A stretch of 64,000 bases of DNA, taken from assembly GCA_021325515.1 (NCBI GenBank), contig JAJPHC010000002.1, positions 62,001 through 126,000 on the forward strand, given 5' to 3'. The stretch is from Acidobacteriota bacterium. Its GTDB lineage: Bacteria > Acidobacteriota > Thermoanaerobaculia > Gp7-AA8. The notes beneath the pieces were generated by a model that was not told the DNA's origin, ran no database searches, and was given only the letters and a program-made list of their open reading frames with translations. The position numbers and the translations under genes were made by a program. Of the stretch, positions 1,343-62,191 are shown piece after piece (position 1 is the stretch's first letter; the number at the start of each line of letters is the position of its first letter).

Positions 1343-1427
1343 AAACGCGAGGCGCGAGTCGCGAGTCGCGGGGCGCGGAAGAACCCGTCCCATGCGCCCC
1401 GCGCCCAGCGCCTCGCGCCCTGAAAAC
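1343..1427. repeat. Heptad-period inverted repeat without an ORF
   Basis: Left gcgaggc-gcgagtc-gcgagtc-gcggggc-gcgg; right gcgcccc-gcgccca-gcgcctc-gcgccct. The right arm matches the right arm at 3009-3050. Confidence 0.65.
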
Positions 1428-2621
1428 ATGGAATACGACATCTTTTTTTCCATCTGCCAGACGGAGGTACATGGGTACCTCCCGTCTGAGCGGGTGATGC
1501 TCGAGAACTTCTTCGAGCAGGTGGAGCTCGCGGACGAGCTCGGATTTGGCACTGCCTGGGTCGCCGAGTCGCATTTGTCGACCGAAGTGCAGAAGACGAA
1601 TCCGGGAGCGGTGATCCCGCATTTCACGGGCGAGATCGGTCTCAACACCGACATCCTTCAGCTTGCGCATCGCGTGTTCGGGCGGACGAAACGGCTCGGC
1701 GTCGGGTCAGCGATTCTGAATATTCTCTGCAACGGCGGGCCGATCGCGCACGCGGAGCGGATCAAGACCTTTCTCGCGCTGCACGGCCTCGATCCGAAGG
1801 AGTCGCGCACGCTGACGATCGGCTTCGCGTCGGGACGATTTCCGTTCATCAACGTGCCGTACGGGATCGTGCCGCGGAATCCCGTCGAAGCCGCGGCGTG
1901 GCCTATCGTGAAGAACAAGATCTTCGAGGAGGCGACGGAGATCTTCCTCCGCCTGCTGAAAGGGGAGACGCTGAACTCCGGAATGATCGGGACGCGCACG
2001 TTGAAGCGCTCCGATTTCCGCAGCGACGCCGACTGGCAGCGGGTGCAGGATGCAGTTGGTCAATACGTTGACGAAGTGCCTCTCGAGCCGCGCTGGCGCT
2101 TCCCGAACCTGAAGATCGTCCCGCAGGAATCGCGGATGGACCTGCTGCGGCTCTCGATCGGATCCCACGATCCGGCGACGCAGCTCTTCGCCAATACGAT
2201 CATGCCGGTCGGCGTCTTCAATCTGTCGATCACGCCGGGAGACGAGATCGAGAAGACGAATGAGCGGATGCTCACCGCGTATCACGCAGATGGCGGCGGG
2301 TGGCATCGCCGTCTGATGCCGCGCACCGTCCTCGTGTTCATCAACGACGACGCGCAGAAGGCGAAAGAAGAAGCGCACGACGCGCTGTCGAACTATTGGA
2401 AGGCGCTCGAAGGAACGCTGGACCAAGCGAAGGTGCAGCGTGCGACCAACAACGCGCTGGTCGGCGATGCGCCGGCGATCATCGAGCAGATGAAGCAGCG
2501 ATTCCATCCCGAGGACCGGCTGATGTTGTGGTTCGATTTCAACAATCACGACTCGAAGCGGGTGATGAAGAACATGCGCGATTTCATGACCGCCGCCGCT
2601 GCCTTGGGCGCCGGGCGCTAG
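1428..2621 (+). CDS. LLM-class flavin-dependent oxidoreductase (luciferase-like monooxygenase)
   Basis: MEYDIFFSICQTEVHGYLPSERVMLENFFEQVELADELGFGTAWVAESHLS...; bacterial luciferase-like N-terminus. ATG at 1428 preferred over the 1035 ORF start. Confidence 0.8.
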   Translation: MEYDIFFSICQTEVHGYLPSERVMLENFFEQVELADELGFGTAWVAESHLSTEVQKTNPGAVIPHFTGEIGLNTDILQLAHRVFGRTKRLGVGSAILNILCNGGPIAHAERIKTFLALHGLDPKESRTLTIGFASGRFPFINVPYGIVPRNPVEAAAWPIVKNKIFEEATEIFLRLLKGETLNSGMIGTRTLKRSDFRSDADWQRVQDAVGQYVDEVPLEPRWRFPNLKIVPQESRMDLLRLSIGSHDPATQLFANTIMPVGVFNLSITPGDEIEKTNERMLTAYHADGGGWHRRLMPRTVLVFINDDAQKAKEEAHDALSNYWKALEGTLDQAKVQRATNNALVGDAPAIIEQMKQRFHPEDRLMLWFDFNNHDSKRVMKNMRDFMTAAAALGAGR

Positions 2622-3027
2622 GCGCTGGGCGCATGGGACATGACGCGCGCAGAACGATTCGAGGACCTCATCGCCTGGCAACTGGCGCGCGAACTGACAA
2701 GGGATGTCTATGACGTTACCCGGTCACGTGAATTCGGTCGGGATTGGGCCCTCGCCTCGCAGATGCAGCGAGCAGCAGTATCGATCATGGCAAACCTTGC
2801 CGAAGGTTTCGATCGAGAAGGCTCTACCGAGTTCCACCGGTTTGTGACCATTGCGCGGGCGTCCTGCTCTGAACTGAAATCTCACATGTATGTCGCGCTC
2901 GATGCAGGTCATATTTCGCAGAGCGATTTCGAGCGAATGCGAATCGCAGTCGATGAAGTCGGCCGGAAGCTAGGGGCACTTCGTCGAAGTTTGAAGAAGG
3001 ACTAACAGTCCCATGCGCCCAGCGCCC
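2621..3027. mobile_element. Putative IR-flanked cassette A carrying a four-helix-bundle ORF
   Basis: Perfect 19-bp inverted repeat ggcgctgggcgcatgggac (2621-2639) / gtcccatgcgcccagcgcc (3009-3027), extended by heptad repeats (tgggcgc/gcgccca) on both sides, tightly enclosing ORF 2640-3005. Confidence 0.6.
2640..3005 (+). CDS. Four-helix-bundle protein (23S rRNA intervening-sequence/S23 family)
   Basis: FEDLIAWQLARELTRDVYDVTR...QMQRAAVSIMANLAEGFDREG...FVTIARASCSELKSHMYVALDAG; canonical IVP family motifs, 121 aa. Confidence 0.85.
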   Translation: MTRAERFEDLIAWQLARELTRDVYDVTRSREFGRDWALASQMQRAAVSIMANLAEGFDREGSTEFHRFVTIARASCSELKSHMYVALDAGHISQSDFERMRIAVDEVGRKLGALRRSLKKD

Positions 3028-3102
3028 AGCGCCCAGCGCCCAGCGCCTCGTGCCACTGGCGCCGCCATCGCACTCCACGCGTAACGTTAGAATTGAGAAA
3101 GA

Positions 3103-4164
3103 ATGTTCGACGAGTCCGCTGCTCCTAACTTCGCGCGCCCGATGCCCAACTGGCAGCCGCTCGTCGAATACCGGCGCAACGGCGTCGCGGAGAACACGGT
3201 GCATGGCGCGGTCTCCTGGGTGTCGGGCCGCAACGTCATCTACTCCTTCGGCGGCAACGTCGAGGTCTACGGACGCTCGATGGTCAAGCCGATCATGATG
3301 AAGGTCTTCGCGCGCGATTTCGCGCGTGAGCTCACCGGCGAGCAGCAGGCGATCTCCGTCGCATCGCACAACGGCGATACGGAGCATGTGCGCGTCGCCC
3401 GCTCGATTCTGCGCGAATCCGAATGGGGTCTGATGCAGGCGCCCCACGACGTCCCGCTCGTGCAGTTCGGCCGTCAGGTGCGCAGACCTCGCCGCTGGTA
3501 TCACTGCTGTTCCGGCGAGCACGCTGCGATCCTGCGTGGCTGCCGCGTGCGCGGCTGGTCGCGCGTCGGCTACGTCTGGCCCCACCATCCATTCTTTCGG
3601 GAATACCTCGGCTACATCCGCGGCGTGCTGGGGCCGGATTGGAAGATGGGAACGATCGCCAAGGATGGCTGCGGCCTGCCGACGGTCTCGATGACCGTCA
3701 CCGATCTCGCGCGCCTGTTTGCCAATCTCGTCACCGAGCGGCAGCAGGATTGGATCTGGGACTCGATGGTCGCGCATCCCGATCTCATCGGCGGTTTCAA
3801 CCGGCTCGACTCGACGATCCTCAAAGCGTGTCACGGCCGCGTCATCGCGAAGGAGGGAGCTGATGGATTGCTCGGCCTCGCGATCGAGCATCCCGAGTTT
3901 CCTGACGGTCTCGGCGTCGTCGTGAAGATCGCGCACGGCTGGAATCCGCAGGCCACCTGGTACATCGCCCGTTACATCCTCGGCGTGCTCGGCTTCGAGT
4001 TCCGCAATCCTTACAAGCTGCGAAGGCAGAAGGCGTTCATCGTCCCCGAGGTGATTCCGCCAGAGTTGCGCGAGCGGATGGCGGCCATCGTGCCGTGGGA
4101 TTCGTGGGATCCCGACATCGATCGCTGGGAGTTCGATCCGGAGGAATTCCTTGCAGCTCGGTAA
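3103..4164 (+). CDS. Asparaginase II family protein
   Basis: VEYRRNGVAENTVHGAVSWV...GRSMVKPIMMKVF...SIASHNGDTEHV-like and CSGEHAA motifs. Confidence 0.75.
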   Translation: MFDESAAPNFARPMPNWQPLVEYRRNGVAENTVHGAVSWVSGRNVIYSFGGNVEVYGRSMVKPIMMKVFARDFARELTGEQQAISVASHNGDTEHVRVARSILRESEWGLMQAPHDVPLVQFGRQVRRPRRWYHCCSGEHAAILRGCRVRGWSRVGYVWPHHPFFREYLGYIRGVLGPDWKMGTIAKDGCGLPTVSMTVTDLARLFANLVTERQQDWIWDSMVAHPDLIGGFNRLDSTILKACHGRVIAKEGADGLLGLAIEHPEFPDGLGVVVKIAHGWNPQATWYIARYILGVLGFEFRNPYKLRRQKAFIVPEVIPPELRERMAAIVPWDSWDPDIDRWEFDPEEFLAAR

Positions 4165-5575: not shown

Positions 5576-7615
<2,040 letters not shown>

Positions 7616-7630
7616 GGCCCCCAAGGCAAA

Positions 7631-21710: not shown

Positions 21711-21870
21711 TGGGATGGGAGAATGGGACGGATGGGACGGATAGGACGGATGGGACGGATGGGACGGATAGGACCTATGGGACCTATGGGACCTATGGGA
21801 CCTATAGGCGGAGCCCGATGCTACCCATAGGTCCCATAGGTCCTATAGGTCCCATTCGTCCCATCCCATG
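21711..21870. repeat. 9-bp-period inverted tandem-repeat hairpin H1
   Basis: Left arm ~11 units of gggacggat/gggacctat; right arm cccatag-gtcccatag-gtcctatag-gtcccattcgtcccatccc; between IDH stop and DUF309 start. Confidence 0.9.
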
Positions 21871-41921: not shown

Positions 41922-42676
41922 ACGAACCCAAGATCCACGTCAAAGACTTCGACTTCTTCTACGGCGCATCGAAGGTGCTGCACGGCATCTCGATGGACAT
42001 TCCTGACCGGCAGGTGACCGCGCTGATCGGACCGTCGGGCTGCGGGAAGTCGACCTTCGTCCGTTCCATCAATCGGATGAACGACATCATCCCCGACGCC
42101 CGCGGCACGGGGACGATTCTCATCGACGGAAAGAACGTGTATGGACGCGACACCGACGTCGTCGCGCTGCGCCGCCGCGTGGGGATGGTGTTCCAGAAGT
42201 CGAATCCGTTTCCGAAGTCGATCTTCGAGAACGTCGCGTACGGCCTCCGGATCAACGGCGGGGGGAGCAAGCGCGAAATGGCGGAGATCGTGGAGCGCTC
42301 GCTGCGCCGCGCCGCGTTGTGGGAAGAGGTGAAGGATCGCCTGCACAGCAGCGCCTTCGCGCTTTCGGGCGGACAGCAGCAGCGTCTCTGCATCGCGCGC
42401 GCACTCGCCGTCGATCCCGAGATTCTTCTGATGGATGAGCCGGCGTCGGCCCTCGATCCGATCGCGACCACGAAAATCGAAGAGCTGATTTACGAGCTGA
42501 AGAGCAACTACACGATCGTCATCGTCACGCACAACATGCAGCAGGCGGCCCGCGTCTCGGACAAAACCGCGTTCTTCATGATGGGCAGGCTGGTCGAGCT
42601 CGGCGACACGAAAACCATGTTCATGACGCCGAAGGAAAAGATGACCGAGGATTATGTGACGGGAAGATTTGGATAG
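41918..42676 (+). CDS. pstB: Phosphate ABC transporter ATP-binding protein PstB
   Basis: [51 protein letters not shown]...[39 protein letters not shown] start. Confidence 0.96.
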
Positions 42677-42765
42677 GACGTATGGGACCGATGGGACGGA
42701 TGGGACGGATGGGTGGACGTCTCCCATCCGTCCCATCCGTCCCATCCGTCCCATCCGTCCCATTG
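42671..42765. repeat. 9-bp-period inverted tandem-repeat hairpin H2
   Basis: ggataggacgtatgggaccgatgggacggatgggacggatggg / cccatccgtcccatccgtcccatccgtcccatccgtccc; pstB stop TAG lies inside the left arm. Confidence 0.9.
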
Positions 42766-46407: not shown

Positions 46408-46977
46408 ATGGCAGCGATGCCTCACGTGTTCCTTCTCTCGCCGGCCAGCCTGTCCGGCAAACGGGCGAAGCAGTTGACCTCGCCACGCGCGGACTTTTCT
46501 GCGGCGCGGCAGTATCGAAGCGAAGAGGGTGTGGCGATCGGCGAAGCCTTCGCGTTCATGAGCTCTCTCTATTTCCGCGGCAAGATCGCGTACGCGATGC
46601 ACTTCGGCGGCGCCGCGAACACGTTCGTGATCACCTCCGGCTTCGGCCTCGTTTCTCCCGACTGGCGGATGACGCCGGAGAGGCTGAAGAGGATGCAGCG
46701 GATCGACATCGATGTGAGGGCCCGCAGTTACGTGAAGCCGCTGCAGGAGACCGCGGCCGAGCTGCGCGCGCGCATCGCGGACGACGCGCACGTGGTTCTC
46801 CTCGGCAGCGTGGCAACTGGTAAATATATTGACGTGTTGCATCCGGTGTTCGGCGGCCGCCTGCACTTTCCAGCCCTCTTCGCCGGTCTCGGCGACATGT
46901 CGCGCGGCGGTCTGATGCTGCGCGCCGTAAGGGAAGAAAGCGAGCTCGAATACTCCCCGGTCCCCTCGTCATCCTGA
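46408..46977 (+). CDS. Conserved hypothetical protein
   Basis: MAAMPHVFLLSPASLSGKRAKQLTSPRADFSAARQYRS...VVLLGSVATGKYIDVLHPVFGGRLHFPALFAGLGDMSRGGLMLRAV. Confidence 0.7.
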   Translation: MAAMPHVFLLSPASLSGKRAKQLTSPRADFSAARQYRSEEGVAIGEAFAFMSSLYFRGKIAYAMHFGGAANTFVITSGFGLVSPDWRMTPERLKRMQRIDIDVRARSYVKPLQETAAELRARIADDAHVVLLGSVATGKYIDVLHPVFGGRLHFPALFAGLGDMSRGGLMLRAVREESELEYSPVPSSS

Positions 46978-47003
46978 GCGAAGCGAAGGATCAACGAAGG
47001 CGC
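46968..47003. repeat. Dispersed palindromic repeat (CATCCTGAGCGAAGCGAAGGATC family), inverted partner of 47145-47182
   Basis: gtcatcctgagcgaagcgaaggatcaacgaaggcgcc. Confidence 0.85.
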
Positions 47004-47029
47004 CGGCAGGATAAAGCAAGGAGTGGGAT

Positions 47030-47147
47030 CCTGAAGCACGCGCAGCGCCGATACGATGAAGCCTGAAGCACACGCCCCGCGGATACGATGAAGCCTGAAG
47101 CACGCGCCCCGCGGGTAGGATAGACGCATGAAGCACGTGCCCCGCGG
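47030..47147. repeat. ~32-bp direct tandem repeat, about 3.6 copies
   Basis: cctgaagcac(g/a)cgc(a/c)(g/c)cgc(c/g)gatacgatgaag starting at 47030, 47062, 47094; degenerate fourth copy from ~47127. Confidence 0.8.
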
Positions 47148-47182
47148 CGCCTTGGTTGATCCTTCGCTGCGCTCAGGATGAC
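47145..47182. repeat. Dispersed palindromic repeat, inverted copy
   Basis: gcggcgccttggttgatccttcgctgcgctcaggatgacc. Confidence 0.85.
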
Positions 47183-48137
47183 CGGGGGATGGAGGACGCA
47201 CCTGCCCGCTCGTAAGTTCACCATTCCGGACGACACCAACGAAGTCCTGGCGCGCTTCGGTGATCGCGAAGTCCGCCTCACGAATCTCCGGAAGATCTTC
47301 TGGAAAAATCTCGAGCTGACGAAGCGCGATCTTCTCCAGTACTACGCCGACATCTCCCCCTGGCTGCTCCCTCATATCGAAGGCCGCGCGATGGTCATGA
47401 AGCGCTACCCGAACGGCGCGGAGGGCGACTTCTTCTACATGAAGCGCGCGCCGGAGCCGCGGCCGGAGTGGATCGACATCTGCGGCATTCCTCACGACAA
47501 AGACATCGTCCGCTTTCCGATCGTGCAGGATCTTCCATCGCTCCTCTGGCTCATCAACCTCGGCTGCATCGATCTCAACCCCTGGTATGCGCGCTGCGAT
47601 GACTGGGACCGTCCCGATTTTCTCCACTTCGATCTCGACCCCGGTCCCGGTGCGGATTTCGCGAAGGTGCGCAGCGTCGCGCTGCACGTGCGCGACATCC
47701 TCGCCGCCCTGAAGGCGCCGGCGTACGCCAAGACCACGGGCTCGAAAGGGATACACGTCTACGTGCCGATCGTGCGCGGACCACTGCAGAAGGACGTCTG
47801 GTCGCTGGCGAAGGCGATCGCGATCGAGCTCGAGTCGCGCCATCCGCAGCTCATCACCGCCGAGTATCGCAAGGTGAAGAGGCCCTACGGCCGAGTGCTC
47901 GTCGACTACAACCAGAATGCGTGGGGCCGGACCCTTGCATCGATCTATTCCGTCCGCCCCACGCCGGTGGCCAGCGTCTCGGTGCCGGTGACGTGGGAAG
48001 AAGTGGAGGAGGGAGTGCGCATCGAAGACTTCCGCATCGACAACGCCGTCGCCCGCGTGCGCGAGCTCGGCGATCTCTGGAAGCCGGTGATCGCAGCGAA
48101 GAAGCGATTCGATCTGCGAAAGGTGTTCGGAGGATAG
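47178..48137 (+). CDS. LigD-type polymerase/primase domain protein
   Basis: REVRLTNLRKIFWKNLELTKRDLLQYYADISPWLLPHIEGRAMVMKRYPNGAEGDFFYMKRAP...FLHFDLDPGPGADFAKVR...KTTGSKGIHVYVPI. Confidence 0.9.
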   Translation: MTGGWRTHLPARKFTIPDDTNEVLARFGDREVRLTNLRKIFWKNLELTKRDLLQYYADISPWLLPHIEGRAMVMKRYPNGAEGDFFYMKRAPEPRPEWIDICGIPHDKDIVRFPIVQDLPSLLWLINLGCIDLNPWYARCDDWDRPDFLHFDLDPGPGADFAKVRSVALHVRDILAALKAPAYAKTTGSKGIHVYVPIVRGPLQKDVWSLAKAIAIELESRHPQLITAEYRKVKRPYGRVLVDYNQNAWGRTLASIYSVRPTPVASVSVPVTWEEVEEGVRIEDFRIDNAVARVRELGDLWKPVIAAKKRFDLRKVFGG

Positions 48138-52294: not shown

Positions 52295-52458
52295 TGATGG
52301 GAGTATGGGACGGATGGGACGGATAGGACCGATGGGACGGATGGGAAGAACCGCGTTCTCCCCATAGGTCCCATAGGTCCTATAGGTCCCATAGTCCCAT
52401 GCGACTCACAGCAAGAACCGCGTTCCCACCCATCCGTCCCATCAGTCTCATAGTCCCA
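52295..52458. repeat. 9-bp-period inverted tandem-repeat hairpin H3 between convergent genes
   Basis: gggagtatgggacggatgggacggataggaccgatgggacgg ... cccataggtcccataggtcctataggtcccatagtccc ... cccatccgtcccatcagtctcatagtccca; aagaaccgcgttc occurs twice. Confidence 0.88.
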
Positions 52459-53127
52459 TCAGTGCAGCCCGGTGAAGAACCGGTTGAAGCGCGGCACGTA
52501 GTAGTGATTCCGATCGAGGGAAAACGCGACCGCTAGCGCCTTGCCGACGATCTGCGTTCTCGGGATCAGGCCGATGTACCGGCTGTCCTTGCTGTTGTCG
52601 CGGTTGTCGCCCATCACGAAGTACATCCCCGACGGGACTTTCACCGGACCGTACGTGCTCTTCTCCGACATCGCATAAGGGCTGAGCATCACCTTGTGCT
52701 CGTGGCCGTCGAGATCTTCGTTCATCACATACGTGCGGCCCTGCAGCGGATCATCGACCGGATAGCCGGTGTCGGAGTGCGGCTGCTGCTTGCCGTTGAT
52801 GAAGAGGACGTTGTCTTTCAACTCGACCGTGTCGCCCGGAATGGCGATGACGCGCTTGACCAGCCGCACACCATCTTCCGGCGAGAACAGCACGACGATG
52901 TCGCCGCGATGCGGATCGCCCCACTTCACGATCTCGTAGGTCGTGAACGGGATCTTGAGGTCATAGGCGAGCTTGTTGACGACGACTCGATCGCCTTCCT
53001 GAATGGTCGGCTTCATCGATCCGGTCGGCACGTCGTTCCAGTCGGCAAGTGCCGAGCGGAGAGACGTGACGACGAGCAGCATCAAAGCAAAAACACGGAT
53101 TTCGTTGATGATCTTTTTCTTGTCCAT
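52459..53127 (-). CDS. lepB: Signal peptidase I (copy 2)
   Basis: DWNDVPTGSMKPTIQEGDRVVVNKLAYDLKIPFT...GDPHRGDIVVLFSPEDGVRLVKRVIAIPGDTVEL...YFVMGDNRDNSKDSRYIG. Confidence 0.95.
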   Translation of the reverse strand: MDKKKIINEIRVFALMLLVVTSLRSALADWNDVPTGSMKPTIQEGDRVVVNKLAYDLKIPFTTYEIVKWGDPHRGDIVVLFSPEDGVRLVKRVIAIPGDTVELKDNVLFINGKQQPHSDTGYPVDDPLQGRTYVMNEDLDGHEHKVMLSPYAMSEKSTYGPVKVPSGMYFVMGDNRDNSKDSRYIGLIPRTQIVGKALAVAFSLDRNHYYVPRFNRFFTGLH

Positions 53128-56677: not shown

Positions 56678-56816
56678 TGTATGGGATGGATGGGAGGATG
56701 GGACCTATGGGACCTATGAGACCTATGGGCGGAACCCACACCTCATTTTTCGGTTTTCTACGATCGGTCTCCCCCCATAGGTCCCATAGGTCCTATAGGT
56801 CCCATAGTCCCATCCC
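56678..56816. repeat. 9-bp-period inverted tandem-repeat hairpin H4
   Basis: gtatgggatggatgggaggatgggacctatgggacctatgagacctatggg ... cccataggtcccataggtcctataggtcccatagtcccatccc. Confidence 0.9.
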
Positions 56817-62095: not shown

Positions 62096-62191
62096 GGGGC
62101 TCGCGGACACGCGGGCTCGCGGGCTCGTGGTGCTTCGCTCCTTCGGCATTCGTCTTTCACCGCGCGCCCGCGTACCCGCGTGCCCGCGAAA
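62096..62191. repeat. 8-bp-period inverted tandem-repeat element
   Basis: ggctcgcggacacgcgggctcgcgggctcgtgg ... ccgcgcgcccgcgtacccgcgtgcccgcg. Confidence 0.8.

Follow-up and report, generated by a model that had tools for sequence, protein, structure and literature searches.

An S23p gene between inverted heptad arrays in an Acidobacteriota genome and its probable membership in a family of mobile hairpin elements

The locus described here raises the question why a gene of the S23p family lies between two protein-coding genes, directly enclosed by inverted arrays of 7-nt repeats, and how it is translated from such a position. S23p proteins have hitherto been known chiefly from insertions within rRNA genes; the 23S rRNA IVS was first described about 1990, and an S23p structure was solved in 2006. 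The locus, designated cassette A, is located in the window, the whole stretch of 64,000 nucleotides of genomic DNA that was analysed. Its coordinates and those of related features are collected in Table 1.

The inverted repeat of cassette A pairs positions 2605-2639 with 3008-3042 and comprises 35 nt with 94% complementarity. The left arm consists, in order, of the units tgggcgc, cgggcgc, taggcgc, tgggcgc and atgggac, and the right arm of gtcccat followed by four copies of gcgccca, with the array extending to 3047. The open reading frame begins immediately 3' of the left arm, and the stop codon TAG of the upstream monooxygenase (2619-2621) falls inside this arm, 18 nt ahead of the ATG. An earlier note on this DNA had described a four-helix-bundle gene flush between heptad inverted repeats of the type tgggcgc/gcgccca, with the monooxygenase stop in the left arm. 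This description was borne out, and the arrangement turns out to be general. Confirmed were also the end of the left arm at 2639, the ATG at 2640 and the end of the frame at 3005, while the right arm was found to start at 3008 and not at 3009, and the left arm at 2605 and not at 2619. The assignment to the tgggcgc type applies to the outer units only; the innermost heptad pair, atgggac/gtcccat, is a variant unlike the remaining TGGGCGC/GCGCCCA units. Nine copies of the inner motif GGGCGCATGGGAC are present in the genome, exclusively in cassette A and in gene-less arrays (reversed control, 0). For the cassette RNA, a folding energy of -210.6 kcal/mol was calculated (z = -5.0 against dinucleotide shuffles), the arms pairing as a 34-bp stem with the AUG at its inner end. 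Between positions 1300 and 8000 of the window, no match to an Rfam family was identified.

Table 1. Positions of cassette A, its neighbours and other repeat-bounded features in the window.
Feature	Position	Strand	Remarks
Luciferase-like (flavin) monooxygenase gene, upstream of cassette A	1428-2621	+	PF00296; TAG in left arm
Left arm of cassette A	2605-2639	+	Four tandem heptads of TGGGCGC type, plus inner ATGGGAC
S23p / 23S-rRNA-IVP four-helix-bundle gene, 121 aa	2640-3005	+	TIGR02436, PF05635, 2GSC, AlphaFold2
Right arm of cassette A	3008-3047	+	GTCCCAT, then four GCGCCCA heptads and one partial
L-asparaginase II gene, downstream of cassette A	3103-4164	+	PF06089, E 5.3e-50
Gene-less hairpin before the monooxygenase gene, cassette A family	1346-1420		Right arm repeats that of cassette A, including GTCCCAT
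RAYT (REP-associated tyrosine transposase) gene	5582-6232, within 5576-6261		Perfect 27-bp inverted repeats 5576-5602 / 6235-6261
Cassette B, second S23p gene (L013)	7187-7621	+	AAAATTG heptad arms 7187-7224 and 7584-7621
Gene-less 9-mer hairpin, ATGGGACCT/ATGGGACGG family	21713-21866		S23p-bearing member L015 elsewhere in genome
Gene-less 9-mer hairpin	42671-42763		Inverted arrays
Gene-less 9-mer hairpin	52295-52463		Inverted arrays
Gene-less 9-mer hairpin	56688-56815		Inverted arrays
Gene-less 8-mer (CGCGGGCT) hairpin	62102-62188		S23p-bearing member L011 elsewhere in genome

By profile search and structure prediction, the encoded protein is a member of the S23p / 23S_rRNA_IVP family (PF05635, TIGR02436) with a predicted four-helix-bundle fold. 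It scored 101.9 bits against TIGR02436 (cut-off 24) and 106.9 bits against PF05635; the profile searches returned S23p/IVP families only, and no Y1 (HUH) transposase. The closest solved structure is that of XCC0516 (PDB 2GSC, E 4.5e-16), a homopentamer. The AlphaFold2 monomer model is a four-helix bundle (pLDDT 91), which superimposes on 2GSC with a TM score of 0.89, on 2RLD with 0.80 and on Avd of the Bordetella phage diversity-generating retroelement (DGR; 4DWL) with 0.77. Residues Q41, E55 and E78 are invariant or almost so across 113 homologues. In eight diverged pairs, the pN/pS of the ORF family amounted to 0.15-0.36, which reveals purifying selection and implies that the frame of cassette A belongs to a family that is translated, selected and genuinely protein-coding. 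Neither catalytic residues nor a co-encoded enzyme were found for the S23p cassettes, and the protein is apparently non-enzymatic.

Homologues align their methionine with position 2640, and no further in-frame ATG, GTG or TTG is present between the monooxygenase stop and the conserved S23p core; these findings support a start codon at 2640. The ATG is preceded by arm sequence only, in which the sole G-rich stretch, GGGAC, abuts the start codon, so that the proposed absence of room for a Shine-Dalgarno (SD) sequence holds for this copy. That translation must therefore be coupled or non-canonical, as the earlier note concluded, is too strong, since SD sequences appear to be weak in this genome generally and the cassette repeat itself can serve as SD in sister cassettes, for example AGGAGTCAGAATAAATG in L231. 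Anti-SD pairing of -4 kcal/mol or better was identified for 37% of the long ORFs of the genome compared to 29% at random; on this crude baseline the long ORFs hardly exceed random pairing, and the lack of an SD may be ordinary here. Among the cassettes, 63 of 113 reach -4 kcal/mol, and a comparison for SD dependence gave no clear difference for cassette A. Coupling is nevertheless plausible, because the upstream stop codons are located in or beside the left arm and the AUG lies at the inner end of a stem that a ribosome could open. In 52 of 68 cassettes, the end of a co-directional ORF with 150 codons or more lies in the left arm or no further than 30 nt from it (25 in the mirror arrangement), and in 46 of the 68 such an ORF begins no further than 60 nt from the right arm (mirror, 11). 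Translation of S23p by termination and reinitiation downstream of the monooxygenase stop is thus a plausible route for cassette A. In cassette B, no in-frame ATG precedes the conserved core, and the only candidates, ATT or TTG, are located near the left arm.

The cassette A genome (5.38 Mb) contains seven genes matching TIGR02436, and all seven lie between matched inverted arrays. Their units are GAGTGCT, TGGGCGC (cassette A), the 8-mer CGCGGGCT, AACGATG, AAAATTG, GCAGAAC and the 9-mer GGGACCTAT. In a set of 61 related genomes, of which named members such as the source of L190 are Acidobacteriota, matched arms (score of at least 16) were identified at 62 of 73 scorable S23p loci, compared to 15 of 600 when the left flank of one S23p locus was paired with the right flank of another. 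For the best 80 homologues in GTDB, from Cyanobacteria, Nitrospirota, Chloroflexota, Planctomycetota, Desulfobacterota, Gammaproteobacteria and others, matched arms were present at 54 of 77 loci, and most of their units follow the pattern GAGNNCT; because many members of this set share a unit of this type, its between-locus null is high (119 of 600). Carriage by phages was rejected, as 50,697 phage records gave no match. One S23p gene with AACGATG repeats, L012 (G000:C51:84753-85319), has a complete hairpin on either side and not one pair of arms. In the relative G034, TIGR02436 matched 26 times, in many cases over part of the profile or gene only, and L026 among these is without arms.

The same repeats are dispersed without a gene. 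In 1.19 Mb of the cassette A genome, 193 tandem arrays were identified, mostly of period 7, 8 or 9, compared to 3 in a first-order Markov shuffle of the same 1.19 Mb. About 50 inverted pairs are formed, the density of hairpins without a gene being about 40 per Mb, and most loops comprise 6-100 nt. Where the loop exceeds 150 nt, it contains S23p in five of six cases; the sixth (C40:171750-173954, 2.15 kb), the only loop above 600 nt and considered for other cargo, shows a number of unremarkable long ORFs and probably results from two unrelated arrays. The exact unit of an S23p cassette of the same genome was present in 40 of 50 hairpins, whereas the cassettes of seven other genomes accounted for at most 10 of the 50. 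A similar result was obtained for G008 (own unit in 11 of 18 hairpins, at most 6 for other genomes), while the hairpins of G009 are inseparable from those expected with G003 cassettes (13 of 28 own, 14 of 28 for G003), since GAGTGCT is common to both. The identity also extends to terminal motifs outside the repeat, which are common to S23p cassettes and gene-less copies. The non-repeat terminal motif of L014, AAAAGCGAAATNCAGAA, has 73 sites (control, 0), largely in convergent pairs about 80-110 bp apart, and a pair at 446 bp encloses the S23p gene of L014.

Between genomes, hairpins accompany the cassettes. Cassette-rich genomes contain 42-90 hairpins per Mb, and none was found in 800 kb of stretches from five genomes without S23p, although phylogeny is a partial confounder because the S23p-less genomes belong to other families of the class. 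Within one genus, 90 hairpins per Mb were identified in G008 with eight cassettes and 10 per Mb in G015 with one, and the hairpin unit of G015 is the unit of its own cassette. A 21-nt AACGATG probe had matches in 8 of the 61 genomes and most strongly where the cassettes have AACGATG arms (G000, 72; G007, 35; G006, 7), with 21 further matches in G011. Genome G020 has 14 S23p genes yet a single hairpin in 100 kb, which counts against a mobile element.

Protein and repeat unit are co-inherited. Across 113 cassettes, the similarity of the proteins correlates with that of the arms at a Mantel r of 0.57 (permutation sd 0.05, maximum 0.15), inside Acidobacteriota at an r of 0.35 (null sd 0.03), and for pairs below 0.6 protein similarity at an r of 0.27-0.29. 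On the protein tree, period 7 versus 8 requires three changes, and five unit classes require five changes over 33 labelled rows. Cassette A falls into a supported clade of 11, the ten others of which carry GAGNNCT-like units; its own unit, GGGCGCT, is two transitions away from GAGTGCT. The simplest reason for this co-inheritance would be that S23p binds the unit, but it could also result from linkage alone, without binding.

Cyanobacterial plasmids indicate recent gain or loss. In those of Trichormus variabilis and Scytonema, an S23p cassette is located immediately 3' of a stop codon, and about 98% identical plasmids of Tolypothrix, Nostoc linckia and N. carneum contain neither a cassette nor an array at that site. 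The unfilled site reads AAAAAGTAATTAAC and the filled one AAAAAGTAAT-[element]-GTAATTAAC, corresponding to a 5-bp duplication. A uniform target-site duplication was not found across the filled and unfilled plasmids: GTAAT is cleanly duplicated in one comparison only (L231/L239) and approximately in two, and in others 10-16 nt of the target are replaced instead of duplicated. In Brasilonema, a gene-less hairpin occupies the site of the Trichormus/Scytonema cassette, and in Nostoc ATCC 53789 one sits in the position of the C052 cassette L237. The insertions are located at stop/start junctions of operons, one of them in antisense orientation between a pair of genes for ribonucleotide reductase. 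Two S23p cassettes (L236, L246) on plasmids from Pseudanabaena galeata and Anabaena sp. 90 lie where cas6 and cas4 of a type I-D CRISPR locus meet, and related plasmids are without a cassette there.

For cassette A itself, the monooxygenase-asparaginase junction was compared in relatives. The spacing between the two matches is 9-30 nt in the unfilled genomes (G006, 9; G007, 27; G002, 30) and 484 nt in the cassette A genome. In G003 it amounts to 752 nt and holds another S23p cassette, L107 (G003:C59:37896-38700), with arms of GAGTGCT/GAGTCCT; L107 and cassette A are sisters in the tree (support 81). For G012, of the same genus as G003, the spacing is 158 nt, and S23p was not matched there. The left arm contains the end of the monooxygenase frame in both filled genomes. 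Either one old insertion took place, with both arms switching their unit together, or two insertions occurred at one site. The right arm of L107 extends into the 5' end of the asparaginase gene.

We consider it likely, with a probability of roughly 0.7, that cassette A is a protein-coding member of a family of mobile hairpin elements. This reading starts from the observed anatomy and generality of the cassettes, the unit identity of cassettes and hairpins, the co-variation of protein and unit, insertion polymorphism and purifying selection; of the earlier interpretation it retains the anatomy and drops the obligatory coupling, and a mobile hairpin element had not been part of it. The transmissible unit would consist of two inverted arrays whose repeat measures 7 nt or, in sub-clades, 8 or 9 nt, with one copy per family carrying an S23p gene in the loop and many copies having only a short loop. 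S23p would probably bind its own unit, as DNA or as an RNA stem, and help its family to spread and to become homogeneous, in cis as well as, by mobilisation, in trans; the DNA chemistry of movement would be performed by a host enzyme. Within a transcript, the arms are predicted to fold the cassette into a self-contained stem, and the cassettes are mostly located where a co-directional gene ends, so that an arm supplies or overlaps its stop codon. The 23S rRNA IVSs would represent the rRNA-resident form of the element. Against this reading stand the lack of catalytic residues and of a co-encoded enzyme, the cassette-rich genomes without a reverse transcriptase and the irregular target-site duplications.

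Four other explanations have to be weighed. The cassettes might be resident regulators whose stem serves as an RNase III site or terminator under S23p control and whose dispersal is ancient. The preference for sites between co-directional genes, the stable stem, the purifying selection on S23p and the cleavage of the Coxiella 23S IVS stem by RNase III (PMC4990558) would all be accommodated, but near-identical plasmids differ in the presence of a cassette and the gap at the asparaginase junction varies within one family, both implying recent gain or loss, and the cassette neighbours form no specific regulon. We regard this explanation as unlikely.

Quite unlikely is a route through an RNA copy, in which S23p acts like Avd and recruits a reverse transcriptase (RT) to the hairpin RNA. 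Among functionally described proteins, Avd (4DWL, 8UB7) matches the fold most closely (TM 0.67-0.77), PF05635 resembles Avd (PMC10053308), and the insertions are mostly sense-oriented within transcription units. However, no RT, TR or VR was present at any cassette examined, and no RT match was obtained for the cassette-rich genomes G003, G006, G007, G014, G018, G034 and G049; an RT as required partner was therefore rejected. The sole RT match of the cassette A genome is located on a separate contig (C26).

It is still less probable that the hairpins are ordinary tandem repeats born by slippage, and that S23p genes enter their pre-existing loops as safe sites. Array copy numbers do vary, hairpins far outnumber cassettes, and an independent slippage account of 7-nt repeats is cited in PMC4679880. 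Such an origin does not agree with the Trichormus-type plasmid sites that are unfilled and lack any array (L240, L242, L243), with the S23p-less genomes without hairpins, with unit and period tracking the S23p clade between genomes, or with non-repeat terminal motifs in both cassettes and gene-less copies.

Least probable is that the RAYT of the genome, of which one copy lies 2.5 kb from cassette A and which has counterparts in 51 of 61 relatives, moves the heptad hairpins with S23p as a passenger, in the way that REPINs, also hairpin elements, are presumed to be mobilised in trans (PMC3116915): this was disfavoured, since the RAYT of the window has its own inverted repeat with a different palindrome, G015 gave no RAYT match despite its cassette and a hairpin of matching unit, G036, G027 and G054 match RAYT yet have no hairpins in the stretches sampled, and the units follow the S23p phylogeny. 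The palindrome, GTGCGGACGCCTCGTCCGCAC, is unrelated to the heptads, and this locus is a classical RAYT/REP unit.

The proposed mobile hairpin element resembles several known systems without coinciding with any. Like the 23S rRNA IVSs of Coxiella burnetii (PMC4990558) and Leptospira, cassette A has an ORF of the S23p family between base-pairing inverted ends, and the Coxiella IVS shares tandem heptads (GACAGAT) immediately 5' of the ATG, a poor SD and a sporadic distribution. In contrast to the IVSs, which reside in rRNA helices, cassette A lies between monooxygenase and asparaginase genes and the heptad cassettes generally in protein operons, with heptad arrays as both arms and dispersed, family-specific gene-less hairpins. 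Excision by RNase III, with no subsequent ligation, is a further mark of the IVSs. For the Coxiella 23S IVS it was argued that S23p is probably not made in vivo (PMC4990558), which counts against the mobile-element reading. With RAYT/REPIN systems (PMC3116915), the cassettes share a protein gene that is typically present once for each repeat family and bordered by the repeat of that family, and many non-autonomous hairpins formed of inverted repeat pairs, with specificity per family, so that dispersed hairpins unit-matched to a flanked gene are found in both. However, S23p is a four-helix bundle without homology to Y1 (HUH) transposases, and the repeat is a tandem array of 7-9 nt units and not a REP palindrome. 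Avd of the DGRs (4DWL, 8UB7) has the same fold as S23p at a sequence identity of about 11%, but the heptad cassettes are without RT, template repeat or variable repeat. Terminal inverted repeats are shared with MITEs and insertion sequences, and no transposase is encoded in the element.

Dispersed heptameric repeats have been described as GGGAATC in Xanthomonas and GGGGA(C/T)T in Nostoc (PMC4692102), as TAACTGA in Beggiatoaceae and others (PMC4679880) and as cyanobacterial STRRs; like the cassette hairpins they are intergenic, family-specific and built of 7-nt units. GGGAATC forms 70-75 convergent inverted pairs per Xanthomonas genome, and that study named no associated protein and found the repeats without a general connection to mobile elements (PMC4692102); the TAACTGA study also named no protein and considered a repeat-binding protein merely as a possibility (PMC4679880). 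In the full-text literature, the only prior link between S23p and heptads was found in the Coxiella IVS paper (PMC4990558), where the heptads were noted and not generalised; subscription papers and preprints lay outside this search, and an earlier report is possible.

At even odds we place the wider proposal that S23p/IVP proteins serve as the unit-specific factors for selfish hairpin elements found throughout the bacteria, a class analogous but unrelated to RAYT/REPIN, which would supply much of the dispersed tandem repeats of 7-9 nt in bacterial genomes, STRRs, GGGAATC and TAACTGA among it, and of which the rRNA IVSs would be elements landed in rRNA helices. Two old puzzles, the function of S23p and the origin of the scattered heptameric repeats of bacteria (PMC4692102, PMC4679880), may then share one answer. 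The link would name a protein for each repeat family, so that repeat binding, mobilisation in trans and coupling become testable, and it would explain why a period of exactly 7 is so frequent and periods of 8 and 9 occur in certain clades of the protein. A different repeat type was observed at 46954-47196 of the window, where a 52-nt inverted repeat of the TCATCCTGAGCGAAGCGAAGGATC type surrounds a 32-bp tandem array.
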